A stretch of DNA of 34,868 bases, from the IMG/VR virus record IMGVR_UViG_3300043539_000654, positions 1 to 34,868 of that record; one strand, given 5' to 3'. The stretch comes from a virus. Of this stretch, positions 1 to 34,868 are shown one piece after another (position 1 is the stretch's first letter; each line of letters starts with the position of its first letter). Under the pieces are notes generated by a model, which saw nothing but the letters and a program-made list of their open reading frames with translations, ran no database searches and had not been told where the DNA came from. The translations under genes were made by a program, and so were the position numbers.

Positions 1-123
1 GTGCCGTTGTAATAACTTCTTTAGCGTTCCATCATCGGAATCACTGCCGGTGTACTCGCCACGCTCTGCCCGTGGCTTACGCTTTGGAGTAGCGTCCAGC
101 TCATCAAACCATTCATCACCCAA
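1..123 (-). CDS. Primase-helicase N-terminus (partial, left-end allele)
   Basis: This is the first 41 codons of the PriCT/ATPase helicase whose full version lies at 30901-32214; the rest runs off the left edge. Start is TTG at 123, overlapping the TGA of the primase gene by 8 bases, with a GAGG ribosome site 7 bases upstream, as in the full copy. The encoded residues are identical to the first 41 residues of the full copy. The first 127 bases of the window match 32092-32218 without a mismatch. It is probably the same gene seen again because the contig ends overlap, not a second gene. Confidence 0.85.
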   Translation of the reverse strand, partial: MGDEWFDELDATPKRKPRAERGEYTGSDSDDGTLKKLLQRH

Positions 124-985
124 AGTAGTACCTCATTATCTCCGGCAGGTCTGCTCGGACAATGTCTAGCAAGAATGACCATCGTGCATCAAGTTTGCTT
201 TTTACGCAAGCCTGCTCAACCTCTAAGAAAAAGGTATCAAGGCAACCGGTGTATCGTCCGGAAGCATGGCGTATCATCGGGCTTGCGTGTCCCAGCTCGC
301 CAGCCTTGGCGGATGCCAGCAGGGCATCAAGCCTACCATCGCCCAGCGTCTCAACCAACAAGGATTGTTTGTAGGTTGGCTTCATGCCGCCACCCTTCAG
401 CATCAGCACAGGCTTAGGCTCATCGGGATTCTTCCAGTTGATCGTTCCCGCTACGCGCAGTATGCGGTCAACGTTAGCAACGTTATCGGTGCCGGGTAGT
501 ATCTTGTCTGCAAAGTCACGGATGCGGTTCTCTAGCGTGGTTCGGTCCTTGGTAGACGTGCAAAGTTTAGGTCTGGACAGCATTTTGTATCCGTGCCAAC
601 CGTTACCGCTTGATACGACCAAGTCGCAGGTGTCAAGTAATAGTTGACTACTGGCACCCGGTACCTTGGAATCTAGATCTATCCAGACTGTCCCGACCTG
701 CTCAATGGATTCCTTGCCGAGCTTACGCCCCGGACCTTCAGGCGCAGCACGTGGACACACTCCAACGTAAACATCGTAACCACGCATGGCGAGGGAAATG
801 ATGTGCTGGCTAAGTGCTTGCCCTTCCTCGCCCTTTAGGCAATGTGGCAAACGGTAAGTGGTTCGGTTAGCGTGGGGCTTGTGCTTGGATAGCGGACGGA
901 TTTCGATGAAGCCGTCTTGATAGGGCTTGAAAAGATGCCGTAAAAAGGCGATAGCCTGAACGGCATCAGTGGCTGGTATTGCCAT
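116..985 (-). CDS. AEP/RepB-type DNA primase (left-end allele)
   Basis: A 289-residue protein with archaeo-eukaryotic primase features of the RepB-primase type: a WIDLD acidic motif near residue 103, a GNGWHGY motif near 128 and a DRILRVAGTINWK block near 174. It should synthesise primers for phage replication together with the PriCT-helicase gene it overlaps. ATG 985 (MAIPATD) is chosen because the right-hand allele starts there and the longer in-frame start at 1018 would lie inside the structured leader. It is about 76% identical to the 32207-33073 allele, with most changes in the middle and C-terminal third. The primase motifs are kept, except that IPGT reads VAGT here. Confidence 0.85.
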   Translation of the reverse strand: MAIPATDAVQAIAFLRHLFKPYQDGFIEIRPLSKHKPHANRTTYRLPHCLKGEEGQALSQHIISLAMRGYDVYVGVCPRAAPEGPGRKLGKESIEQVGTVWIDLDSKVPGASSQLLLDTCDLVVSSGNGWHGYKMLSRPKLCTSTKDRTTLENRIRDFADKILPGTDNVANVDRILRVAGTINWKNPDEPKPVLMLKGGGMKPTYKQSLLVETLGDGRLDALLASAKAGELGHASPMIRHASGRYTGCLDTFFLEVEQACVKSKLDARWSFLLDIVRADLPEIMRYYFG

Positions 986-990
986 GATGT

Positions 991-1079
991 AACCTGTTGT
1001 CCTTCGAGATACCTGCATCTGGAAACCCTCCGGGGATCAGCCGGAGGGTGGACTAGGTCCATAACCAGAAGGACAGGTT
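991..1079 (-). promoter_or_regulatory. Structured RNA leader of the primase gene (allele 1)
   Basis: The gap between the nuclease gene and the primase start folds into nested inverted repeats. The central stem is ACCCTCCGG (1025-1033) with CCGGAGGGT (1041-1049). A short stem CTGG (1019-1022) pairs with CCAG (1065-1068). The outer stem pairs AACCTG/TCCTT (991-1004, 3-base bulge) with AAGGACAGGTT (1069-1079). No T-tract follows, so it is not an ordinary terminator. The outer stem contains the purine-rich stretch that would serve as the primase ribosome site, so folding could limit translation. The second allele keeps all stems. Confidence 0.6.
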
Positions 1080-1087
1080 CACGTACA

Positions 1088-1447
1088 TTATACATCAAAA
1101 GCAAAACCAACATGATCGGCTATTGCCTTGGCGGCATCGTGCCAAGAGTAGGCAACAACAAAGGTGTAGCCGTGCGGCTGCAATGCATCACGGAAGGAAA
1201 CCTGCCCCGGTGTAAGCCGACCTTTACCGGCCTTCATTTCAACGTACAGCCCCGGCGCTGGGCAAGGTAAAAAGATATCCCAAACCCCAGCAAGAACGCC
1301 CATTGCTTTGAACTTAGCAGCTGTCCTGATGTCTCGATGCCCGCCGTTAGGGCAATGGTAAATGGTTGACAGTTCCGGATGCTTGGTAGCCATCAGGCGC
1401 ACCCAAGTAATCAAGGCAATCTGTTCGCGGTCTTCAAGATGTTTCAT
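1088..1447 (-). CDS. VRR-NUC domain nuclease (left-end allele)
   Basis: A 119-residue stand-alone VRR-NUC nuclease of the PD-(D/E)XK fold. Visible catalytic pattern: D57 in GVWDIF, E70 and K72 in VEMKAGKG, and Q82 in LTPGQ. Phage VRR-NUC proteins are usually single-domain and are thought to act on branched DNA in replication or recombination. The ATG at 1447 overlaps the sigma factor stop by 14 bases, so the genes are translationally linked. It differs from the 33178-33537 allele at about 20 positions, none in the catalytic pattern. Confidence 0.88.
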   Translation of the reverse strand: MKHLEDREQIALITWVRLMATKHPELSTIYHCPNGGHRDIRTAAKFKAMGVLAGVWDIFLPCPAPGLYVEMKAGKGRLTPGQVSFRDALQPHGYTFVVAYSWHDAAKAIADHVGFAFDV

Positions 1448-2255
1448 AGATGGTCTTCAGTTCAGCAAGTGCTTTGTAGATGCGTTCTTTGACCACTGAT
1501 GGCGGTATACGATATCGACTGGCTACCATGTGAATGCTTTGAGGTACACGCCCATCAAGCCCAAGGTGTAGGGCTATCATCTGCCGGGTCTCACTATCAA
1601 GTGCGCCTAACGCTGTCATCAGGGTACCGTCTTCAGCCTCAGAAAAATACTCATCCTCGGCAGAGGCTGTAGATCCAAATATTGCAGTATCACCAAGCAC
1701 GAGTTGAGAACCCTGTACCGGGGTCTCAATGGATAGTGGTTCGATGCCTGATGCCGTGCGGCATATCTCGATGGTTTCAATGGTCATACCGCTACGTTCT
1801 GATAACTCTTCATCGGTCGGTGGTCTACGCAGCTCCATTTCCAAGATGACGTAGAACCGTTTGAGTTTGTGCCACTTCACCAAGGCGTGTTCGGCTATCC
1901 GTATGGTTCTGTATTGGTTAGATTGATAGCGTCGTAGTTTCTGATAAAGCCAAGGGTGGGCATAGGTTGAGAAACGTAAACCACGCTCAGGTTCCCACTT
2001 TTCAATAGCGCGAATCAAGCCCTCAACGCAATACTGGCAAGCATCGGTGAAGTGTTCTTTGTGCTTGATAACCTTACAGACTTCACGCACAAAAGCAAAG
2101 TTATGGCGGATCATAGCGTCAAAGCAATCATCTTTATATATGCCGTTAGCCCAACCGTAGTGAAGTAAAACCATCTCGTCGTGAGACAACAAACGCTCCG
2201 GTGCCTTATGTAAAGCCCGGAGCGTCTGCCGAATAGTACTTGGTCTGGGTGTCAA
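1434..2255 (-). CDS. Phage-encoded sigma-70 family factor (left-end allele)
   Basis: A 273-residue sigma factor. Region 2 spans roughly residues 43-113 and includes FSTYAHPWLYQKLRR, the core-binding and -10 melting segment. Region 3 covers about 120-190. Region 4, an HTH for -35 binding, covers about 212-268 with SRYRIPPSVVKERIYKAL. I chose the TTG at 2255 because it overlaps the TGA of the upstream gene (TTGA) and follows GCAGGGGG. The longer GTG start at 2297 adds 14 residues that differ between alleles (ACHTQ versus ASTAT), as expected if they are untranslated in this frame. Likely role: redirect host RNA polymerase to phage promoters. Confidence 0.9.
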   Translation of the reverse strand: MTPRPSTIRQTLRALHKAPERLLSHDEMVLLHYGWANGIYKDDCFDAMIRHNFAFVREVCKVIKHKEHFTDACQYCVEGLIRAIEKWEPERGLRFSTYAHPWLYQKLRRYQSNQYRTIRIAEHALVKWHKLKRFYVILEMELRRPPTDEELSERSGMTIETIEICRTASGIEPLSIETPVQGSQLVLGDTAIFGSTASAEDEYFSEAEDGTLMTALGALDSETRQMIALHLGLDGRVPQSIHMVASRYRIPPSVVKERIYKALAELKTIYETS

Positions 2256-2560
2256 CGAACCCCCTGCGCTTTGAGTATGGCAGGCTTGGTTTCCCACTCG
2301 TATCGTAAAGCGTCCTTAGCTGCAGCAATCATGCCAAGCAAAAGCAGGACACTTACCGCACAAATAACACCTGCCCTAATCGAATCCCTAATAGCCCGGT
2401 TACGGCTAAGGTATGCATCGCGCATAGCCTCCAGCGCGTAGTGCCGCTCCCTGAGCTTCTGGGCTTGCGCTTGCTGGTCTTGCCACTCTGCCATCCGGCA
2501 AGCCATACAAATCGAATCGTTATCCATCACATCATGCGCACAGTCGTTGCATCGTTGCAT
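2252..2560 (-). CDS. Zinc-ribbon single-pass membrane protein (left-end allele)
   Basis: A 102-residue protein with two CxxC pairs (C4/C7 and C18/C21) that look like a small zinc ribbon, a charged probable helical stretch at 24-60, and one hydrophobic segment at about 63-81 (AGVICAVSVLLLLGMIAAA). Its stop overlaps the proposed TTG start of the sigma factor, so the two are probably translationally coupled. A membrane protein with a zinc-binding cytoplasmic part next to a sigma gene suggests an anti-sigma role, but this is inference: the Cys pattern is not the classic HxxxCxxC anti-sigma motif. Confidence 0.75.
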   Translation of the reverse strand: MQRCNDCAHDVMDNDSICMACRMAEWQDQQAQAQKLRERHYALEAMRDAYLSRNRAIRDSIRAGVICAVSVLLLLGMIAAAKDALRYEWETKPAILKAQGVR

Positions 2561-2578
2561 CGTCTTTTCTCCCTAACC

Positions 2579-2800
2579 TTAGTTGTCAAACGTCTCTGTT
2601 TCAATGGTCGGCTTGATCCGACTCTTACGGCGAATAGTCAAGAGCCTTGCCAAGTCTTCTTCCGCCATGTCCATGGCTTCAGCGAGCTTGGTGAGGTTGC
2701 TTGCCTGTGGTGTCTTTTTACCAGCCATCCAATCGGATACTTGCGGCTGGGTTGCACCGATGCGTCTTGCCAACTCCTGCTGGCTTAGTCCTCTAATCAT
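2579..2800 (-). CDS. Small XRE-family (Cro-like) repressor
   Basis: A 73-residue HTH_XRE protein: LSQQELARRIG (helix 2) and TQPQVSDWMAGKKTP (recognition helix and turn). It has no C-terminal oligomerisation or peptidase domain, so it resembles Cro more than CI. It is the first gene of the leftward unit, the position of lambda cro. The ATG at 2800 lies 6 bases from the likely -10 (TATATA), with no ribosome site, which suggests a leaderless mRNA. A perfect 19-bp palindrome (2807-2825) lies just upstream, so it probably represses itself and is the best candidate to bind the other five copies of that palindrome. Confidence 0.88.
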   Translation of the reverse strand: MIRGLSQQELARRIGATQPQVSDWMAGKKTPQASNLTKLAEAMDMAEEDLARLLTIRRKSRIKPTIETETFDN

Positions 2801-2806
2801 GCAATC

Positions 2807-2825
2807 TATATACCATATGTATATA
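2807..2825. promoter_or_regulatory. Operator O1 at the repressor promoter
   Basis: TATATAC-CATAT-GTATATA is a perfect palindrome with 7-bp arms and a 5-bp centre. It covers the likely -10 of the leftward repressor promoter; a TTGACG at about -35 lies upstream on the minus strand with a long, roughly 19-bp spacer. It belongs to a six-member set with consensus TATA-N2-C-N5-G-N2-TATA. Confidence 0.7.
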
Positions 2826-2841
2826 CTTACCCGTCAAGTGT

Positions 2842-2869
2842 TTGACAATATATATCTTCGGTGTATAAT
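2842..2869 (+). promoter_or_regulatory. Rightward early promoter with operator O2
   Basis: TTGACA (2842-2847) and TATAAT (2864-2869) with a 16-bp spacer form a near-consensus sigma-70 promoter driving the 2904-5191 cassette. An imperfect copy of the 19-bp operator, TATATAT-CTTCG-GTGTATA (2849-2867), fills the spacer and overlaps the -10. Binding there would block transcription. Confidence 0.8.
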
Positions 2870-2903: not shown

Positions 2904-3161
2904 ATGCTTCAACAAGCAGTAGAGATGGTCAAGCAAGCGGTGGCAGACGGAAAATTTCTTCGAGTTAAAATCGGTTCTGCGATACACGATATTAACTTAG
3001 TTGATGCCATCACTTTTATTGAAGGTAAATCGGTGTGGTTCATTAAGAGAATCACTATCAGTGATAACGCTGTTACGTTTTTGGACGGATCACTTGGTAT
3101 CCTTATGGAAGACCCAGACGATTACAACGCTGATGCATCCAACCACGTAACGGGAGTATAG
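2904..3161 (+). CDS. Hypothetical small early protein, 85 aa
   Basis: Start ATG 2904 is fixed by GGGAGATAA just upstream and by the promoter at 2842-2869; an in-frame extension further upstream would run through the promoter and is not credible. The protein begins MLQQAVEMVKQAV and has an acidic C-terminus (LMEDPDDYNADASN). I recognise no family. It is the first gene of the rightward cassette, so it is probably made early and placed under repressor control through O2. Confidence 0.7.
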   Translation: MLQQAVEMVKQAVADGKFLRVKIGSAIHDINLVDAITFIEGKSVWFIKRITISDNAVTFLDGSLGILMEDPDDYNADASNHVTGV

Positions 3162-3163
3162 CG

Positions 3164-3388
3164 ATGACAAAGCGAGACGCATACAACATCCTCACGCTGG
3201 CCCTTGCAAAAGGGCTGACGTTTGAGGGTGGCACCTATAAGGGTAACTTCCCTGTTGTGTATCGACAAGATCCATACTGGGTACACACCATCAACCGTGG
3301 TGCAGGATTCAACATCGAATACAAATATCAACGACAGTTTTCATGGCTTGGCTCACCTGACGAGCTGCGGGAGATAAAGAATGACTAG
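3164..3388 (+). CDS. Hypothetical small protein, 74 aa
   Basis: A 74-residue protein starting MTKRDAYNILTLALAKG, with a basic and aromatic middle (YWVHTINRGAGFNIEYKYQRQFSW). It starts two bases after the previous stop, behind CGGGAGTATA, and its last codons overlap the ERF gene start at 3381. No family is recognised. The tight packing supports a real gene in the recombination cassette. Confidence 0.65.
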   Translation: MTKRDAYNILTLALAKGLTFEGGTYKGNFPVVYRQDPYWVHTINRGAGFNIEYKYQRQFSWLGSPDELREIKND

Positions 3389-3878
3389 TAGCGAAAACAT
3401 AGGGGCTATTGCCCCTTCCCTCATAAAGGCACAAAGCCGTATGCAGGGCATCAGTAAGGAAGGTACTAACCCTGCCTTCCGTTCCAAGTACGTCACCCTT
3501 GACAGTATCCTTGATGCTCTGCGCCCTATCCTTACGGCTAACGATTTGATGCTTACCCAAGGCACCACAGACACCACGGTCACAGATGGCAAGGTTGTAG
3601 CGATTACTGTAGAGAGTCGCATCATTCACGCCTCCGGCGAGTGGATCAGCACCACGGCAACCATCCCGGTAACCAAACCGGACGCTCACGGCTTAGGCTC
3701 TGCGCTGACTTATGGCCGCCGGTATTCGGTCTCCGCCCTGCTGGCAATAAGTGCCGATGAGGATGATGATGCAAACGGAGCGGTAGCGCCCCGTGATGAC
3801 TACCGTAGAGGCCCACAGGGCAACATTGTTATTGATACGCCAATCAAGGCAGCAAGACCACTGGGAGGAAATAGATAA
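3381..3878 (+). CDS. erf: ERF-family single-strand annealing recombinase
   Basis: A 165-residue protein of the ERF superfamily. The pattern is typical: N-terminal SLIKAQSRMQGISKEGTNPAF then KYVTLDSILDALRPIL, and later YGRRYSVSALLAISADEDDD. ERF proteins anneal complementary single strands in phage recombination and genome circularisation. GGGAGATAA precedes the ATG. Its TAA overlaps the start of the next gene (TAATG), so it is co-translated with the Gp157-like protein, a pairing seen in many siphoviruses. Confidence 0.9.
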   Translation: MTSSENIGAIAPSLIKAQSRMQGISKEGTNPAFRSKYVTLDSILDALRPILTANDLMLTQGTTDTTVTDGKVVAITVESRIIHASGEWISTTATIPVTKPDAHGLGSALTYGRRYSVSALLAISADEDDDANGAVAPRDDYRRGPQGNIVIDTPIKAARPLGGNR

Positions 3879-4444
3879 TGGCTTTTGACATCATAGATGG
3901 TGAGCTATGGGACGAGGAAACCGGCGAGTATGCCGGGCCCGCTTCTGGCTGGATAACAGGCGAGGAATCACCAGAAGACCTTGCCCTGCTGGTCATGCGG
4001 AAGCGGATGGACATAGAGGCAGCCATTGATGCCGAGACGGCTAAGATGCACGCTATCTTGGCTAACTGTACAAACATCATCGGCAAGCAGACAGCACGGC
4101 TTGAATGGTTGCAACATCAGTACGATGCCCAGCTGCAAGACTACGCTATGAGCCAGTTACCACGCAAGGCTGATGGATCACTGAAAGCCAAGACGTGGAC
4201 GTGCCCTTACGGTACGGTTGCCTTTCGTACACTACTCCCAAAGGTTGCTGTAGTGGATGATGATGTTGCTTTGGCATGGGTTCGCAAGAACTGTCCTGCA
4301 GCCATCAAGATCAAAGAATCCATCTTGGTGAGTCAACTACCTGAGCCAATCAAGAGCGCCATGCTTGAGCATCCAGAGGATGCTAAGAAGGCTGGGTTTG
4401 TGGTTCACCCTGAAGCGCAAGCAGTCACCATCAAAACAGTTTGA
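3878..4444 (+). CDS. Siphovirus Gp157-like protein
   Basis: A 188-residue protein resembling the Siphovirus Gp157 family. It has an acidic N-terminus, a long helical stretch (about 45-95: DIEAAIDAETAKMHAILANC and on) and a conserved-looking core, KTWTCPYGTVAFRTLLPKV, followed by VDDDVALAWVRKNCP. The family accompanies recombination genes in phages, and a role in resistance to the host or in DNA handling has been proposed without a firm mechanism. It follows ERF with an overlapping TAATG; GGGAGG is its ribosome site. The next promoter (4441) begins at its stop codon. Confidence 0.8.
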   Translation: MAFDIIDGELWDEETGEYAGPASGWITGEESPEDLALLVMRKRMDIEAAIDAETAKMHAILANCTNIIGKQTARLEWLQHQYDAQLQDYAMSQLPRKADGSLKAKTWTCPYGTVAFRTLLPKVAVVDDDVALAWVRKNCPAAIKIKESILVSQLPEPIKSAMLEHPEDAKKAGFVVHPEAQAVTIKTV

Positions 4445-4470
4445 CAATCTATACCCGCATGGTGTATATA
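4441..4470 (+). promoter_or_regulatory. Promoter with operator O3 upstream of the double-HTH gene
   Basis: TTGACA (4441-4446) and TATATA (4465-4470) are 18 bp apart. Operator copy TATACCC-GCATG-GTGTATA (4450-4468), one mismatch from a perfect palindrome, lies between them. This is the same design as the 2842 promoter, so the 4505 gene should follow the same repressor separately from the cassette promoter. Confidence 0.72.
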
Positions 4471-4504
4471 CTGTGTGGGTATAACTACCCAAGGGAGATA
4501 AATA

Positions 4505-5191
4505 ATGGGAGCAAAGCATATCACTGCTCAGGAAAAAGAGCTTTTTCAAGTGTTAGTAAACACTGGTTTGTCTATGCAAAAGGTTGCAAGTCTCACAGGT
4601 CGTGACGCAGGAACCGTCAGTAATCATGTGACCTCAACTGTAAGTAATCATCTGACATCATCTGATACTAAACCGGTTGAAAATATCCATTTGACACAAG
4701 ATGAAATGTTTTTAATTTTAGATTTACACGCACAAGGAATGACTTGTACTCAAATTGGGAAAAAGGTTGATAAAGCACATGGCACGGTTTACAAAGTCAT
4801 AAATCAACTTTACCCAAAGCATAAAAAAGCCTATGAAAAATGGCTTGAGTTGCAAAAAGAAAAAGATGCACCAGCTCTTGTGATGGAAGTACAGCCGGTT
4901 GAAGAAAAAGCAGTACCGGCAGCGTTACTTGCTATCCGTGCGGCTCGTGCTGCTGGTAGGACATTACATCAAGAGCCGGTGGAAGTACACACAACCAAAA
5001 GTGAACCATGTGATTGCGACTTTGCAGATTCAAAGAGGTATCAGTTAATGGCAGATCAACTTAGAACCAACCGAGAATGTATTACTAAAAATGAGGCAAT
5101 AATCAAAAGTCAAATTCTATTGATTGCCGAATGTCAAGAAACTATAACTTTACTCAAAGAGCACATTCAGTTGCTCAAATCACTGCGGTAA
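4505..5191 (+). CDS. Double-HTH coiled-coil putative regulator
   Basis: A 228-residue protein. Residues 6-40 (ITAQEKELFQVLVNTGLSMQ and on to GRDAGTVSNH) and 66-100 (LTQDEMFLILDLHAQGMTCT and on to AHGTVYKV) both read as HTH domains of a similar type, probably an internal duplication. The C-terminal part (about 175-228) is a predicted coiled coil (ECITKNEAIIKSQILLIAEC and on), suited to dimerisation. It has its own repressor-type promoter, GGGAGATAA before ATG 4505, and a terminator after it. The coding sequence is clearly more AT-rich than its neighbours, which suggests separate ancestry. It could be an activator, antirepressor or second repressor; the sequence does not decide. Confidence 0.7.
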   Translation: MGAKHITAQEKELFQVLVNTGLSMQKVASLTGRDAGTVSNHVTSTVSNHLTSSDTKPVENIHLTQDEMFLILDLHAQGMTCTQIGKKVDKAHGTVYKVINQLYPKHKKAYEKWLELQKEKDAPALVMEVQPVEEKAVPAALLAIRAARAAGRTLHQEPVEVHTTKSEPCDCDFADSKRYQLMADQLRTNRECITKNEAIIKSQILLIAECQETITLLKEHIQLLKSLR

Positions 5192-18711: not shown

Positions 18712-18722
18712 AGTATCCCACA
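18712..18722 (-). promoter_or_regulatory. Candidate late promoter, leaderless start (connector)
   Basis: TGTGGGATACT followed by TAGGGC then ATG. Three copies stand 5-6 bases from a start codon. GATACT resembles a -10; no shared -35 is seen. It follows the terminator at 18744-18779, so this gene needs its own promoter. Confidence 0.55.
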
Positions 18723-21031: not shown

Positions 21032-21042
21032 AGTATCCCACA
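21032..21042 (-). promoter_or_regulatory. Candidate late promoter, leaderless start (protease)
   Basis: Second copy of TGTGGGATACT, followed by TACACC then ATG 21025. It stands just after the minor head protein stop codon. Confidence 0.5.
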
Positions 21043-23853: not shown

Positions 23854-23864
23854 AGTATCCCACA
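23854..23864 (-). promoter_or_regulatory. Candidate late promoter, leaderless start (portal)
   Basis: TGTGGGATACT followed by AGGGC then ATG. It lies between the terminator at 23870-23891 and the portal start, so the late head genes most likely begin transcription here. Confidence 0.6.
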
Positions 23865-23869
23865 GAAAC

Positions 23870-23891
23870 AAAAAAGCCCCCTTGCGGGGGC
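23870..23891 (-). terminator. Terminator after the 94-aa gene
   Basis: On the minus strand GCCCCC-GCAA-GGGGGC is followed by TTTTTT. It separates the 23908 gene from the portal. Confidence 0.9.
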
Positions 23892-24216: not shown

Positions 24217-24251
24217 TATAATATACACTGTTAGTATATATACTGGAAGAA
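24217..24251 (-). promoter_or_regulatory. Promoter with operator O4
   Basis: Operator copy TATACAC-TGTTA-GTATATA (24222-24240, one mismatch between arms) overlaps a minus-strand -10 (TATATT or TATTAT). TTCCAG stands 17 bp further upstream where a -35 would be; the -35 is weak. Confidence 0.62.
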
Positions 24252-24259
24252 TATAAGTA

Positions 24260-24283
24260 AAATAAAAGCCCTTTTGCAAGGGC
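24260..24283 (-). terminator. Terminator after the 90-aa gene
   Basis: On the minus strand GCCCTT-GCAA-AAGGGC is followed by TTTTATTTT. It resembles the 23870 terminator, with the same loop and the same flanking bases, suggesting the two small units arose by duplication of their flanks. Confidence 0.88.
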
Positions 24284-24598: not shown

Positions 24599-24633
24599 GA
24601 TAATATACACCGTTAGTGTATATATTGGAAGAA
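24599..24633 (-). promoter_or_regulatory. Promoter with operator O5
   Basis: Perfect operator TATACAC-CGTTA-GTGTATA (24604-24622) overlaps the minus-strand -10 (TATATT); TTCCAA is 17 bp upstream. Confidence 0.66.
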
Positions 24634-24648
24634 TATAGGAAATATATT

Positions 24649-27730: not shown

Positions 27731-27911
27731 CTAGATTCTTCCTTAGCTCCGCACTAGTAGCCCAGAGCATAGCAGCGCGCAGTTTATCCTTACTCATACC
27801 CTGAGCCTTAGCCCGTTTCTTTACATCAGCATACAGCCAGCGTGTATAGAGTTCGTTGTATACCGCCAAGCATCCAGCGCCCACCAAAGCACCAATAGCA
27901 AAAGGTATCAT
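27723..27911 (-). CDS. Small membrane protein, 62 aa
   Basis: A 62-residue protein with an N-terminal hydrophobic segment (about 3-18, PFAIGALVGAGCLAVY) and a basic tail (KKRAKAQGMSKDKLRA). It overlaps both neighbours at the start and stop codons (ATGA type), so it is probably translated in series. No family recognised. Confidence 0.65.
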   Translation of the reverse strand: MIPFAIGALVGAGCLAVYNELYTRWLYADVKKRAKAQGMSKDKLRAAMLWATSAELRKNLDE

Positions 27912-28147
27912 TTGGCAACCTCCCCGGTTCGCGGATCAAGTACAACGATGGCCCAGTCGTTAGCAAACAGGTCACCAGGGGACAGGCTCAGTTCTTCAAG
28001 TTGCGTTACCCGTTTCTGTGGCCCGTGAAGTTCAAAGATATTCCACACTTCGGAGTACCGCAAGAATACGGCTCCTCCCCACTCACCGCGCCATACGGCA
28101 TTACCGCCACCAGCCATCAAGGCTTGAATCACTTCTCCGAATCTCAT
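27908..28147 (-). CDS. DUF2829 / Tad2-like protein (possible Thoeris anti-defence)
   Basis: A 79-residue protein matching the DUF2829 layout: MRFGEVIQALMAGGGNAVWR at the start (xFGEAIxALxxGxxVxRxGW type) and LSPGDLFANDWAIV near the end (SDxLAxDWxIV type). Some DUF2829 proteins are Tad2, which sequesters the signalling nucleotide made by Thoeris ThsB and so blocks that defence. Not all members have been tested, so the function here is inferred. It starts in an ATGA overlap with thyX and ends in one with the small membrane gene. Confidence 0.75.
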   Translation of the reverse strand: MRFGEVIQALMAGGGNAVWRGEWGGAVFLRYSEVWNIFELHGPQKRVTQLEELSLSPGDLFANDWAIVVLDPRTGEVAK

Positions 28148-28773
28148 CCTATTACTCCCATTGTGATCGGCAGGTGTTCAGCCATCAAGGCTTTTATGCT
28201 GTCAGCAATCTGTCTATGCTCTACTTGCGTATCTTCCTGCGTCCTGAGCTGCACGTAGTGAATCCAAGACCGTATCGTGCCACTCATGTACAAAGTGGTC
28301 GGAGTGCAAAGCGGTAGTACCATTCTTGCAGTCTCCGCAGCGATACCGGCCTTGATTAGTTTGTTGTATGTCCAGTAGCCACGGGATACGGAGAGCCCAG
28401 CATCAAAGATGACTCCTTGCATCTCGGCATCCAACTCTTTCCATTCTGGCAACGGTTGTGAGCTTTGCCGGTTAGTTGTACCAGCAAGCCGCATCTGCCC
28501 CAGAATGGGGTAATCGTGAACCTCTGCGTACCGTTGGGAAAACTCTTGGAAAGAGAAACTTCGATGCCGCAGAATCTGCGGTGCGATAGCACGGGTGGTT
28601 TTGATTTCCACGCACATCGATGCCATCTCAAAGATTGACCAGTGACCGTGCTTGATGCAGTAAGAGAGCAACCGGGCCACGTCTGGGTTGTCTTGGTTGG
28701 CGGGATTGCTGACCCTTGCGCAGTATCCGATGACCTGCTCCGCTTCCGGTGTAATCCAGATAAGTTTTGTCAT
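28144..28773 (-). CDS. thyX: Flavin-dependent thymidylate synthase
   Basis: A 209-residue ThyX. The signature RHRx7S is at 69-79 (RHRSFSFQEFS, then QRY). The C-terminal SGTIRSWIHYVQLRTQEDTQ and VEHRQIA match the substrate-binding helices. It makes dTMP from dUMP using reduced flavin and methylene-THF, increasing thymidine supply for replication. It overlaps the genes on both sides by four bases and follows GGAGAT, so it is fully embedded in this operon, flanked by two DUF2829-type genes. Confidence 0.95.
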   Translation of the reverse strand: MTKLIWITPEAEQVIGYCARVSNPANQDNPDVARLLSYCIKHGHWSIFEMASMCVEIKTTRAIAPQILRHRSFSFQEFSQRYAEVHDYPILGQMRLAGTTNRQSSQPLPEWKELDAEMQGVIFDAGLSVSRGYWTYNKLIKAGIAAETARMVLPLCTPTTLYMSGTIRSWIHYVQLRTQEDTQVEHRQIADSIKALMAEHLPITMGVIG

Positions 28774-29183
28774 CCGTTGTATATCTCCCAGTCGAAAGCC
28801 AAGACATCAGCGGATCCGAAAGACGCCACCCGGCTGTAGTGCCGGTTACCAGCGCCATCAATCAGATAAAGGCATATCTTGCCATCGACCAGTTGAAGGA
28901 ACCACTGGGCAGCGTGGCGGCGTACCGTCATGCCAGCCCGCAAGCGTTCCAAGGCTGAAGGAAAGCCACCGCCAGAGAGGTTCATCCGCTGGGCTTCAAT
29001 GCTCTTTAGCTGTTCTTCGGTCCGTTCTTTTAGCCACCGGTTGACGGTGGTGTGCTGGAATCCTACAGCCCTTGCCGCTTCGTGGCATTTCATGCCTTCA
29101 GCCACCAAGGTTTCATACCGCTCTAAAAGATACTGCCGCTTTGCGCGGTTAGCAATCACCGATTCACTTGGTCTACCTACCAT
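28770..29183 (-). CDS. HTH protein fused to a DUF2829/Tad2-like domain
   Basis: A 137-residue two-part protein. Residues about 22-52 (YETLVAEGMKCHEAARAVGF, then QHTTVNRWLKERT) read as a Hin/resolvase-type HTH. Residues 74-137 follow the DUF2829 pattern: FPSALERLRAGMTVRRH, a strand core WFLQLVDGKICLYLID, and SADVLAFDWEI at the end. The second DUF2829 gene lies 620 bases downstream. The fusion could be a DNA-binding sensor of a nucleotide signal or a modified anti-defence protein. Only the domain order is visible; the function is inference, and the C-terminal match is weaker than for the 79-residue protein. Confidence 0.6.
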   Translation of the reverse strand: MVGRPSESVIANRAKRQYLLERYETLVAEGMKCHEAARAVGFQHTTVNRWLKERTEEQLKSIEAQRMNLSGGGFPSALERLRAGMTVRRHAAQWFLQLVDGKICLYLIDGAGNRHYSRVASFGSADVLAFDWEIYNG

Positions 29184-29803: not shown

Positions 29804-30292
29804 TTACTCGCCTTCAAACGGATCTACAATGTCATCAACCGGTACGGCTTTTCGTAATGGCTTTGTAGCTGCAACCTTTACCGGCTTTACAGTTTCGATA
29901 ATGTTGGTCATCTCACCGTTCATTTTCTGCCGGGTGCCTACCACTACTTGCCATGACTTGGCTTTGAGCGCTTCGATGTCAAGCTCGGCAAATTGTTGGT
30001 TGGTCATGCGTCCAACCATGCCATCGAGCAAGATTGTCAATTTAGCCTTTTCGTTGCCGTAGTAGGTCTTGGTGTATGCCATGAAGCGGAACGGCTGGCC
30101 ATCATCATCACCAACCTCGGTTGATTCAAACACCCACTTAAAGTTGGGTTCGAGTACGTTAGGGTCATCAAAGCTTTTGCCCTGTACCGCTTCGCAATCG
30201 ATCAAAGCACAGATGTAGATACCCTGCTCGGCTACACTGTACTTCTTGCCGCCACCTTCCGAGAACTTCCCGTGTTGTGCAAAAAATCCCAT
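29804..30292 (-). CDS. Putative ssDNA-binding-like replication protein
   Basis: A 162-residue protein resembling the phage family annotated as SSB-like: KYSVAEQGIYICALIDCEAV, FKWVFESTEVGDDDGQPFRF, KLTILLDGMVGRMTNQQFAE, SWQVVVGTRQKMNGEMTNII and an acidic tail (DDIVDPFEGE), typical of proteins that recruit replication partners. I infer single-strand binding from layout and context near the primase-helicase genes; the family is not certain. AAGGAGACGAT precedes ATG 30292. Confidence 0.6.
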   Translation of the reverse strand: MGFFAQHGKFSEGGGKKYSVAEQGIYICALIDCEAVQGKSFDDPNVLEPNFKWVFESTEVGDDDGQPFRFMAYTKTYYGNEKAKLTILLDGMVGRMTNQQFAELDIEALKAKSWQVVVGTRQKMNGEMTNIIETVKPVKVAATKPLRKAVPVDDIVDPFEGE

Positions 30293-30335: not shown

Positions 30336-30371
30336 GTTCAATATATACCATACCGGTATAAAGTGCCAAAC
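30336..30371 (-). promoter_or_regulatory. Promoter with operator O6 for the SSB-like gene
   Basis: Minus-strand TTGGCA and TATATA are 16 bp apart. Operator TATATAC-CATAC-CGGTATA (30342-30360) lies between and over them. Its first 11 bases match O1. It restarts transcription for the nucleotide-metabolism genes under repressor control. Confidence 0.65.
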
Positions 30372-30901: not shown

Positions 30902-32214
30902 TACCGCTTGTAATACCGCTTGCTACGGCACTCAATCAGCTGTAATTCCATTGCCTCATCAATGGTTTCCCAAACCAGATTTCTATTCTTCTTCAGCCCA
31001 TCACAGATACCACTTTTGGTCTTGCCGGGGTTGTCTGCCACATACTGAGCAACCCGATCTAATACCTCCGTTTCACTTCCAGCCGTTGTGATTTGCTGTA
31101 GTGCTATCTGCCCCGGTTCATCGGTGTTGAGCCTGTACACAAAGTGGACCCAGTCATCCTCCCCAATGTGCCTGTGTTTGACCGTACGCACGTCATACGT
31201 CTTGGCTTCGATGTCGTGGTTGATAGACAACACCATGTCGGCCTGTGCAGCCAAATCAGAGGCCCCACGCATGGTGTCCTGAGTGATAGCCGTTCCCGGT
31301 GCTAATTTTTTATTATGGTGAAGAATCACAACCGCAGCCCCTGCATCAATCAGTTCTTGAAACCGGTCATAGAGTTTGGCAACCGCGCCATTGTCGTTTT
31401 CATCCATGCCATGCACACGAACAAAAGTATCAACAACCACTAGCTGGATGTCATTATCTTTGATGTACTTCACGAGCGCGTCAACGTGGTACCGCTTGTC
31501 TACCTTGGTATTCTTTTTTTGGATGATATGAAGGTTTGGCAGGTCGGTGTTGTGCATCATGCAGAACCGCCCCCAGAACTGCTTTAGGTTTATTTCCTCA
31601 TTGATGTACAGCACCTTAGCCGGGGTTGTCTCAATGAAGTTGCACCATGGTCTACCTGAAGCGCAAGCAATCGCAAGGTCAATACCAAGCCACGATTTAC
31701 CTGATCCGGATGCGGCAGCAATAAAGTGTAGCCCTTTGTGGATAACCATATTCTCAGCTATCCATTCTTGCTCTGGGCAGTTTTGCCCCTCTTCCTTGAA
31801 GCGCCACCAGTTCCAAATCTCAAGCTCGACTTCCGGTACAACCTTCACCGCCAACTCTTCCCGTAGCATGGCAGGGGTTAACGGTGGTAGGTCGGAATCT
31901 TTCCAGTCTGCCCACGCCCTAGCAACCTTTTCGGTTACCTCGTGTTCTTCCATTGGCGGATCACAATAGGTGCGGTTCCAATCCAAGATGCCAGAAAGTG
32001 CAAAATTGATATGTAGCCGTGTGCTCCTGTAGTACCCCACGCAAGCCGTTAGAGCATTGTCCCGCCCACCGTAAGGGCCGCCCCCTTCAGGGTGCCGTTG
32101 TAATAACTTCTTTAGCGTTCCATCATCGGAATCACTGCCGGTGTACTCGCCACGCTCTGCCCGTGGCTTACGCTTTGGAGTAGCGTCCAGCTCATCAAAC
32201 CATTCATCACCCAA
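30901..32214 (-). CDS. PriCT-domain primase-helicase (RecA-like ATPase)
   Basis: A 437-residue protein. Residues about 32-110 form a PriCT-type primase C-terminal domain (GRDNALTACVGYYRS, then YCDPPMEEHEVTEKVARAWA). A RecA-type ATPase follows: Walker A AASGSGKS (167-174) and Walker B LVVVDTF (258-264), with VVILHHNKK and MRGASDLAAQADMV further on, as in RepA/AAA_25 hexameric helicases. It overlaps the primase gene by 8 bases, so primase and helicase are two proteins made from adjacent frames. The TTG start (32214) follows GAGG. It unwinds DNA at the replication fork. Confidence 0.88.
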   Translation of the reverse strand: MGDEWFDELDATPKRKPRAERGEYTGSDSDDGTLKKLLQRHPEGGGPYGGRDNALTACVGYYRSTRLHINFALSGILDWNRTYCDPPMEEHEVTEKVARAWADWKDSDLPPLTPAMLREELAVKVVPEVELEIWNWWRFKEEGQNCPEQEWIAENMVIHKGLHFIAAASGSGKSWLGIDLAIACASGRPWCNFIETTPAKVLYINEEINLKQFWGRFCMMHNTDLPNLHIIQKKNTKVDKRYHVDALVKYIKDNDIQLVVVDTFVRVHGMDENDNGAVAKLYDRFQELIDAGAAVVILHHNKKLAPGTAITQDTMRGASDLAAQADMVLSINHDIEAKTYDVRTVKHRHIGEDDWVHFVYRLNTDEPGQIALQQITTAGSETEVLDRVAQYVADNPGKTKSGICDGLKKNRNLVWETIDEAMELQLIECRSKRYYKR

Positions 32215-33073
32215 AGTAATACCTCATTATCTCCGGCAGGTCTGCTCGGACGATATCTAATCTATATCTCCATCGCTCGTCAGCTTCAAACACCTGACAC
32301 GCTTCCAATGCTTCGATGAAGAACACATCTAGCGAGTCGGTTATCCTACCGCTTGCGTGATGTATACGTGGCTCTGACTTGCCAAGTTGTCCCTGTAGTG
32401 CGGAAGCCAACAAAGCATCTAAACGTTGATCACCGAGGTGTCGAACCAACAATGATTCCTTGTACGTTGGCCGCATCAAGCCACCCTTCAGTAATACGAC
32501 TGGCTTCGGGTTGCTTTGATCTTTCCAATTTAGCGTGCCGGGGATACGTAGGATGCGATCAAGGTTAGATACATTATCAGTACCGGGTAAAACCTTGTCT
32601 GCAAAGTCTCGTATGCGACCTTCCATTGCTGAACGTTCTCGTGTTGATCCGCAAGCCTTTGAGGAAGATAGAACCTTGTAGCCATGCCAACCATTGCCCG
32701 TATGAACCACGATGTCGCAGCCGTCGAGTAAACCTTGACTACTGCCGGGTACTTTAGAATCAAGGTCAATCCAAACTGCACCTACCTGCTCTATAGAATC
32801 CTTGCCCAGCTTACGTCCCGGTCCTTCAGGTGCAGCACGGGGACATACCCCGCAGTAGACATCGTAACCACGAATGGCTAGGCTGATGATGTGTTGGGTT
32901 AGCGCTTGACCTTCTTCACCTCGCAGACAATAAGGCAGTCTGTAAGTGGTTCGGTTAGCGTGGGGCTTGACCTTAGATAAAGGTCTGATTTCAATGAACC
33001 CGTCTTGATAGGGTTTGAATAGATGCCGCAGGAAGGCGATCGCCATCCCGGCATCCGTGGCTGGTATAGCCAT
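32207..33073 (-). CDS. AEP/RepB-type DNA primase (right-end allele)
   Basis: The 288-residue allele of the primase. D103 and D105 in WIDLD, GNGWHGY (126-132) and DRILRIPGTLNWK (172-184) mark the primase core. It is one residue shorter than the left-end copy (SKVPG-SSQ versus SKVPGASSQ). ATG 33073 follows the structured leader. The unchanged C-terminus (LPEIMRYYFG) overlaps the helicase start, which constrains it. Confidence 0.87.
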   Translation of the reverse strand: MAIPATDAGMAIAFLRHLFKPYQDGFIEIRPLSKVKPHANRTTYRLPYCLRGEEGQALTQHIISLAIRGYDVYCGVCPRAAPEGPGRKLGKDSIEQVGAVWIDLDSKVPGSSQGLLDGCDIVVHTGNGWHGYKVLSSSKACGSTRERSAMEGRIRDFADKVLPGTDNVSNLDRILRIPGTLNWKDQSNPKPVVLLKGGLMRPTYKESLLVRHLGDQRLDALLASALQGQLGKSEPRIHHASGRITDSLDVFFIEALEACQVFEADERWRYRLDIVRADLPEIMRYYFG

Positions 33074-33079
33074 GGGTGT

Positions 33080-33169
33080 AACCTGTTGTCCTTAGAGATA
33101 CCTGCTACTGGTAACCCTTCGGTAGCTACTCCGAAGGGTGGACAAGGTCCATAACCAGAAGGACAGGTT
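33080..33169 (-). promoter_or_regulatory. Structured RNA leader of the primase gene (allele 2)
   Basis: Same nested design as 991-1079. The central stem is ACCCTTCGG (33114-33122) with CCGAAGGGT (33131-33139). The base pair C-G of allele 1 is T-A here, a two-sided change that keeps the pair. The loop sequence and length differ (TAGCTACT versus GGATCAG). CTGGT (33108-33112) pairs with ACCAG (33154-33158), and AACCTG/TCCTT (33080-33093) with AAGGACAGGTT (33159-33169). Confidence 0.65.
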
Positions 33170-33177
33170 CAGCAACA

Positions 33178-33537
33178 TTATACATCGAAAGTAAAACCCA
33201 CGTAATCGGCTATCAACTTGGCTGCATCTGTCCACGAATATGCAATCCGGAAGGTGTAGCCATACGGCATCAAGGCATCTCTAAAAGCCACTTGCCCCGG
33301 TGTCAGCCTACCTTTTCCAGCCTTCATCTCGATGTAAAGCCCGGGCGCCGGGCAAGGTAGAAAGATGTCCCAAACACCCGGTTTGACACCCATGGCTTTG
33401 AACTTTGCAGCTGAACGAGGGTCACGATAGCCACCGTTAGGGCAATGGTAGATACTTGCAAGCTCAGGATGTTTTGACTGCATCAGACGTACCCAAGTAA
33501 TCAAGGCTATCTGCTCGCGGTCTTCAAGATGTTTCAT
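33178..33537 (-). CDS. VRR-NUC domain nuclease (right-end allele)
   Basis: The 119-residue allele of the 1088-1447 nuclease, with the same catalytic pattern (GVWDIF, IEMKAGKG, LTPGQ). About 20 substitutions, many in the C-terminal third (for example FRIAYSWTDAAKLIADYV versus FVVAYSWHDAAKAIADHV). It overlaps the sigma gene stop by 14 bases. Confidence 0.87.
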   Translation of the reverse strand: MKHLEDREQIALITWVRLMQSKHPELASIYHCPNGGYRDPRSAAKFKAMGVKPGVWDIFLPCPAPGLYIEMKAGKGRLTPGQVAFRDALMPYGYTFRIAYSWTDAAKLIADYVGFTFDV

Positions 33538-34345
33538 ATATGGTTCTCATTTCGGCTAGTGCTTTGTAGATGCGCTCTTTGACCACTGATGGCGGTATAC
33601 GGTATCGACTGGCTACCATGTGAATGCTTTGCGGTACACGTCCATCAAGCCCAAGGTGCAGGGCTATCATCTGCCGGGTCTCATCATCCAGTACGCCTAA
33701 CGCTGTCATCAGGGTACCGTCTTCAGCTTCAGAAAAATACTCATCCTCGGCAGATGCTGTAGATCCAAAGATAGCAGTATCACCAAGTACCAGTTGAGAA
33801 CCCTGTACCGGGGTCTCAATAGATACCGGCTCGATGCCTGATGCCGTGCGGCATATCTCGATGGTTTCAATGGTCATACCAGAGCGTTCTGATAACTCGT
33901 CATCGGTCGGTGGTCTGCGCAGCTCCATTTCCAAGATGACGTAGAACCGTTTGAGTTTGTGCCACTTGACCAGTGCGTGTTCGGCTATCCGGATGGTTCG
34001 GTATTGGTTAGATTGATATCGTCTAAGTTTCTGATATAGCCAAGGGTGAGCATAGGTTGAGAAACGTAAGCCACGCTCAGGCTCCCACTTTTCGATGGCA
34101 CGAATCAAGCCCTCAACGCAGTACTGGCAAGCATCCGTGAAGTGTTCTTTGTGTTTGATAACCTTACAGACTTCACGAACGAAAGCAAAGTTATGGCGGA
34201 TCATAGCGTCAAAGCAATTATCTTTATAAATGCCATTCGACCAGCCGTAGTGCAGTAAGACCATCTCATCATGAGATAACAAACGCTCCGGCGCCTTATG
34301 TAAAGCCCGGAGCGTCTGTCGAATAGTACTTGGTCTGGGTATCAA
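33524..34345 (-). CDS. Phage-encoded sigma-70 family factor (right-end allele)
   Basis: The 273-residue allele of the 1434-2255 sigma factor. Regions 2, 3 and 4 are conserved; substitutions are conservative (DD to DN, ALDSE to VLDDE, ELK to EMR). The TTG start at 34345 overlaps the stop of the zinc-ribbon gene exactly as in the other allele, while the 14 codons further upstream diverge, which supports this start over the GTG at 34387. Confidence 0.9.
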   Translation of the reverse strand: MIPRPSTIRQTLRALHKAPERLLSHDEMVLLHYGWSNGIYKDNCFDAMIRHNFAFVREVCKVIKHKEHFTDACQYCVEGLIRAIEKWEPERGLRFSTYAHPWLYQKLRRYQSNQYRTIRIAEHALVKWHKLKRFYVILEMELRRPPTDDELSERSGMTIETIEICRTASGIEPVSIETPVQGSQLVLGDTAIFGSTASAEDEYFSEAEDGTLMTALGVLDDETRQMIALHLGLDGRVPQSIHMVASRYRIPPSVVKERIYKALAEMRTIYETS

Positions 34346-34650
34346 CGAACCCCCTGCGCTCGTAGCAGTGCTGGCTTGGTTTCCCACTCGTATCGTAAAG
34401 CGTCCTTAGCTGCAGCAATCATGCCAAGCAAAAGCAGGACACTTACCGCACAAATAACACCTGCCCGAATAGAATCTCTTACCGCACGGTTACGGCTCAG
34501 GTAGGCTGTCCTGTGGGATTCCAAGGCATAAGCCTTCTCACGAGCCTGCCGGGTTTGCTCCTGCTGGTCTTGCCACTCTGCCATCCGGCAAGCCATACAA
34601 ATCGAATCATTATCCATAACATCATGCGCACAGTCGTTGCATCGTTGCAT
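34342..34650 (-). CDS. Zinc-ribbon single-pass membrane protein (right-end allele)
   Basis: The 102-residue allele of the 2252-2560 gene. All four Cys and the membrane segment are unchanged; differences are concentrated at residues about 31-49, in the charged linker (EQTRQAREKAYALESHR versus AQAQKLRERHYALEAMR). Conserved ends with a variable linker fit a protein whose binding head and membrane anchor matter most. Confidence 0.75.
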   Translation of the reverse strand: MQRCNDCAHDVMDNDSICMACRMAEWQDQQEQTRQAREKAYALESHRTAYLSRNRAVRDSIRAGVICAVSVLLLLGMIAAAKDALRYEWETKPALLRAQGVR

Positions 34651-34668
34651 CGTCTTTTCTCCCTAACC

Positions 34669-34868
34669 TTAGTTGTCAAACGTCTCTGTTTCTACAGTCG
34701 GCTTGATCCGACTCTTACGGCGAATAGTCAAGAGCCTTGCCAAGTCTTCTTCCGCCATGTCCATGGCTTCAGCGAGCTTGGTGAGGTTGCTTGCCTGTGG
34801 TGTCTTTTTACCAGCCATCCAGTCGGATACTTGCGGCTGGGTTGCACCAATGCGTCTTGCCAGCTCCT
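34669..34868 (-). CDS. XRE-family repressor (partial, right-end allele)
   Basis: The last 66 codons of the repressor, cut by the window end; its start and operator would lie to the right. The one amino-acid change seen is in the tail (TIETET to TVETET). The recognition helix is unchanged, so both alleles should bind the same operators. Confidence 0.85.
   Translation of the reverse strand, partial: ELARRIGATQPQVSDWMAGKKTPQASNLTKLAEAMDMAEEDLARLLTIRRKSRIKPTVETETFDN

Follow-up and report, generated by a model that had tools for sequence, protein, structure and literature searches.

Genome organization of the phage

The window, that is, the whole stretch of 34,868 nucleotides analysed here, is a single virus record (IMG/VR IMGVR_UViG_3300043539_000654) of a siphovirus-like phage. 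It encodes HK97-type head genes, a tape measure protein, TerS and TerL, a CHAP endolysin, ERF, Gam, a VRR-NUC protein, a primase, a helicase, ThyX, a cytosine methylase and the phage's own sigma factor. An XRE gene leads a leftward operon, followed by the genes for a 102-aa protein, the sigma factor, the VRR protein, primase and helicase; ERF and Gam belong to a rightward operon that runs divergently from it, and nearly all remaining genes are leftward (Table 1). The ends of the window (1-2778 and 32092-34868) encode the same genes with 83.7% DNA identity. The genome unit is about 32.1 kb and the record continues into a diverged copy, which represents either an assembly chimera or tandem genomes. 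Two diverged phage units are also found head to tail in record G008 (L035-L038, 62,434 bases), with class B and class A repressors (see below); this double unit is either a chimera or a real concatemer.

Table 1. Genes, promoters and putative operators of the window, with positions counted from its first nucleotide
Feature	Position	Strand	Details
Phage RNA polymerase sigma factor	1434..2297	-	PHROG 351 1e-29; Sigma70 r2/r3; in the repressor's operon
XRE/HTH_3 repressor, 73 aa	2579..2800	-	HTH_3 43.7 bits; probably leaderless
Repressor promoter	-35 TTGACG 2832..2837; -10 TATATA 2807-2812	-	Sequence and 46-locus comparison
Operator O1	2807..2825		Repressor's own promoter; 14/14
Cassette promoter TTGACA-N16-TATAAT	2842..2869	+	Sequence
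Operator O2	2849..2867		Recombination-cassette promoter; 13/14
Cassette: 85 aa, 74 aa, ERF recombinase, Gam-like	2904..4444	+	Pfam ERF, Phage_Mu_Gam
Operator O3a	4450..4468		Before double-HTH gene; 13/14
Operator O3b	4465..4483		Overlaps O3a; missed earlier; 13/14
Double-HTH protein (HTH_38 + HTH_23) under O3	4505..5191	+	Pfam; -35 4441-4446, -10 4465-4470
Accessory gene 2, 93 aa	23908..24189	-	Matches no known family; its family lies behind 23 arrays
Operator O4a	24222..24240		Spacer and -10 of accessory promoter 2; 14/14
Operator O4b	24237..24255		Covers -35; missed earlier; 13/14
Terminator hairpin GCCCTT..AAGGGC + T-run	24268..24283	-	Ends accessory gene 1; from sequence
Accessory gene 1, 90 aa	24302..24574	-	Directly behind TerL; matches no known family
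Operator O5a	24604..24622		Accessory gene 1 promoter; 14/14
Operator O5b	24619..24637		Covers -35; missed earlier; 12/14
ThyX	28144-28773		Pfam match; in the run led by the SSB-position gene
137-aa HTH protein	28770-29183		HTH domain
SSB-position gene	29804..30292	-	First of run with ThyX; no family match
Operator O6	30342..30360		Upstream of SSB-like gene; 12/14; same promoter has a site in outgroup G021

Palindromic sites in the intergenic regions

In a sequence-only reading of this DNA, six occurrences of TATA-N2-C-N5-G-N2-TATA had been described as a dispersed operator network of the XRE repressor. A sequence search of the window returned all six at the positions given and with the arms described, O1, O3a, O4a and O5a being exact and O2 and O6 having one mismatch each. 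The number of six was nevertheless too low, as there are two more exact matches (O3b and O4b) and one further site with a single mismatch (O5b), each having one TATA arm in common with a site already reported, at an offset of 15 bp. Nine putative 19-bp palindromic operators are consequently spread over five intergenic regions and six early promoters, those behind TerL and behind Gam forming tandem overlapping pairs.

A refined consensus with 14 scored positions, TATAYAC-N5-GTRTATA, was derived from the window and its relatives. The whole-genome count of 19-bp matches exceeds chance, with seven sites at ≥13/14 and ten at ≥12/14 against means of 0.015 and 0.27 in 200 dinucleotide shuffles of the window; the reversed, uncomplemented string gave no match. 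Shuffling the five promoter regions alone predicts 0.02 sites at ≥13/14 where seven are observed, and hence AT-rich promoters do not account for the sites; chance and AT-richness as their source are ruled out by both kinds of shuffle and by the reversed-pattern controls. Similar matches at equal frequency inside genes would have spoken against the network, and this is not the case: nine of the ten matches at ≥12/14 are intergenic, while intergenic DNA constitutes 4.9% of the window (binomial p 1.6e-11). The tenth, at 27830, was set aside as an operator because it lies inside a gene and codes for a conserved YTRWLY. One motif is found, above chance, at several separate promoters.

Promoter architecture

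Each site had been placed in a likely promoter, and each indeed overlaps a sigma-70-type promoter, the -10 of which contains the downstream arm of the site. The two divergent promoters at the repressor locus are arranged back to back; in relatives their -35 hexamers are usually separated by 3-4 bp. O1 begins 6 bp behind the repressor -35, a distance kept in 39 of 46 loci, and overlaps the TATATA; this -35 reads TTGACG in the window and TTGACA in most relatives. O2 sits between the TTGACA and TATAAT of the cassette promoter, its right arm inside the -10, which reads TATATT or TATAAT in 43/46 loci. Since the repressor TATATA ends 6 bp before the ATG and the base preceding that ATG is C in 47/47 loci, the repressor mRNA is probably leaderless. 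In the cassette transcript leader (2870-2895) a small hairpin, GTACC-AAGC-GGTAC, lies ahead of the Shine-Dalgarno sequence, and a hairpin-like element is present in 35 of 47 relatives.

The -35 of the arrays behind TerL (TTGACG or TTGCAG in most relatives, TTCCAA or TTCCAG in the window) starts within the 5-bp spacer of the upstream operator, and the -10 TATATT, at a 17-bp spacing, contains the end of the downstream operator. Two dimers on such an array would cover the whole promoter. Among 84 arrays of the TerL or Gam slot (see below), the -35 is TTGACG or TTGCAG in 68 and the -10 is TATATT in 70. As regards the genes under control, the repressor, the recombination cassette, the double-HTH gene and the accessory genes are retained as putative targets; the replication genes, which had been assigned to the site at O6, are not reached through it, as O6 fronts the SSB-like/ThyX stretch, and primase and helicase sit in the repressor's own operon.

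Conservation in related phages

The same sites had been expected in relatives, and they recur at these promoters in 18 IMG/VR contigs that encode close XRE homologs; these contigs and the window together hold 70 matches at ≥13/14, versus none for the reversed control. A wider search yielded 47 repressor loci. Of these, 46 belong to class A (QPQVSDW) or class B (QPRISDY, 53-61% identical), and the remaining one is an outlier. Every one of the 46 has an operator 4-11 bp before the repressor ATG (6 bp in 41 of them), and a second is located 33-45 bp from the first, again in 46/46, the distance being 41-43 bp in 41.

Most relatives were found through the XRE gene, which makes part of the co-occurrence of XRE and sites a matter of construction, the searches by tandem pattern and by VRR being independent of it. 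For this reason the whole collection was scanned for the tandem DNA pattern alone. From 2.9 million viral contigs (IMG/VR), this blind search for tandem sites at 15-bp spacing retrieved 84 stretches. Homologs of window genes are encoded in 81 of them, and in 77 of these 81 the distance between the array and the end of TerL or Gam is 8-87 bp. In an unrelated phage (L099:235-370, L116:2755-2890), several sites resembling TATATAC-N5-GTATATA, some of them spaced by 15 bp, flank a 115-aa XRE gene; these sites represent either a convergent or a related operator code and were left out of the evidence.

Co-variation and co-loss of sites and repressor

With VRR-NUC as bait, five outgroup records of the same gene order (G019-G023) were reached. 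G021 has an XRE protein of 35% and a sigma factor of 31% identity but retains four sites that fit the same consensus, all at promoters, against 0.08 in shuffles. A pair spaced 41 bp apart lies at the repressor locus, a third site precedes the SSB-like gene and the fourth is in the TTGACG/TATAGT promoter of an opposite-strand accessory ORF. The recognition helix of G019, G020 and G023 reads HQPQVSAW or HQSNVSTW, and their repressor locus carries a palindrome of the same 7-5-7 geometry, TATAACG-N5-CGTTATC or TATATCG-N5-CGATATA (TATAWCG-N5-CGWTATA). No TATAYAC site with up to two mismatches was detected in G019 and G023, in which a clear operator is present at the repressor locus only; weaker TATAWCG matches in the outgroups fall inside helicase and VRR genes, where they may be coding, and were not counted.

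In G022 the XRE gene is absent, ERF and the 102-aa gene being only 186 bp apart, and neither kind of site was found with up to two mismatches, while the sigma factor, replication genes, TerL and portal are still present. As the sites alter with XRE, and disappear with XRE though sigma stays, it is XRE and not sigma that is tied to them. The sites thus track the repressor in 46/46 class A and B loci, in G019 and G023 and in G022, within a small set of outgroups in which co-loss is represented by one contig and co-variation by one lineage with changed sites.

The XRE protein

The 73-aa protein matches HTH_3 well above the curated cut-off of 23 bits, and its ATG start is conserved in the 47 loci. 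Its AF2 model (pLDDT 79) shows four helices, from helix 2 onward, and superposes on operator-bound P22 c2, the best DNA-bound match (Z 6.8, rmsd 1.5 over 52 residues), and on 434 Cro (Z 5.3), such Z values being modest, as for any domain so small. The HTH_3 profile aligns from position 8 and P22 c2 from residue 16, and in this model of only pLDDT 79 the protein looks like a shortened variant of the five-helix domain, a complete form that is common in the family and is not required for the Pfam assignment. Support for its assignment as the repressor of the network comes from the position of the sites, from their presence at the same promoters in relatives, and from the way repressor and sites change or are lost together in the five outgroup records. 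On these comparisons the XRE protein is the likely binder of the sites, and all nine are very probably bound by this single Cro-like repressor.

The remark that no CI is visible holds in the 10 records inspected, as each phage unit has one HTH_3 protein, with no antagonist CI sharing the operators; a tyrosine or serine integrase (PF00589, PF00239) was found in none of these records, which are draft contigs and perhaps incomplete. The protein is therefore called Cro-like in its action, and not a member of a lambda cI/cro switch. Like lambda and 434 Cro, it is a small XRE/HTH_3 protein without a C-terminal domain that is encoded by the first gene of an early replication operon, divergent from the recombination operon, with operators in both early promoters. 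Unlike those systems, there is no CI partner and there are no tripartite operators, each divergent promoter having one operator, 41-43 bp apart; more operators are found at distant promoters, and the model is without the first helix of the domain.

Proposed regulation and alternative explanations

Taken together, these data make it probable that the nine palindromes are operators of a leaderless, CI-less, Cro-like autorepressor that would shut off all early sigma-70 promoters, cargo slot included. In the proposed sequence of events, host sigma-70 would fire the early promoters at once, the leftward transcript giving the repressor, the phage sigma factor and the replication proteins, the rightward transcript giving ERF and Gam, and single promoters driving the SSB-like/ThyX run, the double-HTH gene and the accessory genes. 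The accumulating repressor, as a dimer, would then occupy the -35/-10 spacer of all early promoters, including that of its own gene, and occlude RNA polymerase, which is to say that it would repress rather than activate; behind TerL and Gam, two overlapping dimers would cover most of the promoter. It would act like Cro, in an autoregulated shut-off of early genes, and the co-encoded sigma factor would take over the late genes.

The same network could instead belong to a CI-type repressor of lysogeny or of plasmid-prophage maintenance, conferring long silencing of the early promoters and superinfection immunity. The dispersed-operator networks considered here, MrpR/SPBRE (PMC10516654) and the cluster A stoperators (PMC6550527), are those of temperate phages. 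Operators close to consensus at all early promoters would keep the phage silent, and a CI-like role in a plasmid-like prophage retains some plausibility, the records being draft contigs. However, none of the 10 records has a tyrosine or serine integrase, the prophage search of 84,980 genomes gave no relative of XRE, the TerL relatives in sequenced genomes are distant only (34-48%), and the XRE gene heads the early replication operon and is predicted to be autorepressed, which is the Cro arrangement, with no second repressor. Searches by XRE, TerL, helicase and sigma returned only remote matches among cultured phages. A Cro-like lytic role is the likelier one because of the sole HTH_3 protein, the lack of an integrase and the lack of XRE relatives in those genomes, and the CI-type role is considered unlikely.

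The identity of the binder was also weighed. Both the double-HTH protein and the 137-aa protein have HTH domains, and binding by XRE is itself a prediction; however, in most relatives with the sites no double-HTH gene was detected, and this candidate was rejected (a viral search with the protein gave no matches), and a host regulator would not readily account for sites that change or are lost alongside XRE. Another binder is accordingly very unlikely. More improbable still is a role of the palindromes as promoter elements that the sigma factor of the phage would recognize, as might be suggested by the presence of that factor and by the overlap of every site with a -10. The consensus TTGACA/TATAAT boxes fit host sigma-70, the register of the 19-mer to the -35 differs among promoters, and the sites are unchanged where sigma identity ranges from 31 to 94% (42-43% in many class B phages); a sigma-specific motif was rejected on this register, on sigma divergence and on the co-loss in G022.

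A better candidate for recognition by the phage sigma factor is a motif without a -35, TGTGGGATAMT, at late genes. The element TGTGGGATACT occurs on the minus strand at 23854-23864, 21032-21042 and 18712-18722, in front of the portal, a 322-aa gene and a 165-aa gene, where it ends 5-6 nt before the ATG; it is kept at these genes in relatives, and in the outgroups G019 and G023 TGTGGGATAAT takes its place at the same genes. TGTGGGATAMT motifs before late genes may be late promoters of leaderless transcripts that the phage sigma factor reads, and are a candidate route of the hand-over to it.

Comparison with known phage repressor networks

Dispersed operators under one phage repressor are already known from SPbeta, the cluster A mycobacteriophages and P1. 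P1 operators are asymmetric, and the C1 repressor of this phage maintains lysogeny. C1 acts at operators located next to several phage promoters (PMC8198154). In SPbeta, a short repeated element (SPBRE) found in many phage promoters is bound by one master repressor, MrpR, and the network had been predicted computationally well before its binder was identified (PMC10516654); MrpR has a tyrosine-recombinase fold and SPbeta is temperate, whereas here the predicted binder is an XRE protein and no integrase is visible. Cluster A mycobacteriophages likewise use one repressor and many genome-wide sites with no Cro/CI pair (PMC6550527, PMC9283540), their stoperators being 20-30 asymmetric, monomer-bound sites of 13-14 bp, mostly outside promoters (PMC6550527). 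The nine sites described here are, in contrast, palindromes, all intergenic and at promoters, and are not stoperators in that sense. The present network differs from the known ones in its predicted binder, in the palindrome and in having its sites only at promoters, as well as in the cargo slot and in the lack of a CI and of an integrase.

The regulon was defined from sequence alone, in uncultured phages without close cultured relatives in the collections searched, and its operators are testable. The operator array also serves as a specific tag by which these phages and their accessory slot can be retrieved from millions of contigs, and the repressor/operator pairs, unchanged, switched or lost, constitute a small natural series for the evolution of specificity.

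An exchangeable accessory-gene slot

Behind the arrays, 16 unrelated families of small ORFs are found besides the double-HTH family, and a terminator-like hairpin follows in 62 of 75 cases. None of the ten tested had a Pfam match over cut-off or a PHROG. Like lambdoid morons, these genes have their own promoter and terminator, are absent from close relatives and are inserted between late genes; they differ from morons in that the cargo promoter carries the phage's own early operator, by which the cargo gene joins the repressor's regulon. The most unusual part of the finding is the pairing of a constant promoter under predicted repressor control with cargo that can be exchanged. The slot, with many unrelated small genes under predicted early control, is a good hunting ground for host-takeover or counter-defence genes. 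In a wider view, for which the case appears evenly balanced, one leaderless minimal Cro, co-encoded with a phage sigma factor, would be the only timer of all early promoters in apparently non-integrating, CI-less phages. A standard module of operator, promoter, gene and terminator behind TerL would connect interchangeable cargo to this timer, giving early expression and later shut-off of accessory genes that lie in the late region. A terminator that separates the accessory slot from the portal, GCCCCCGCAAGGGGGC-T6 (23876-23891, minus strand), is nearly invariant in about 60 relatives, and is perhaps the recombination point at which cargo genes are swapped.
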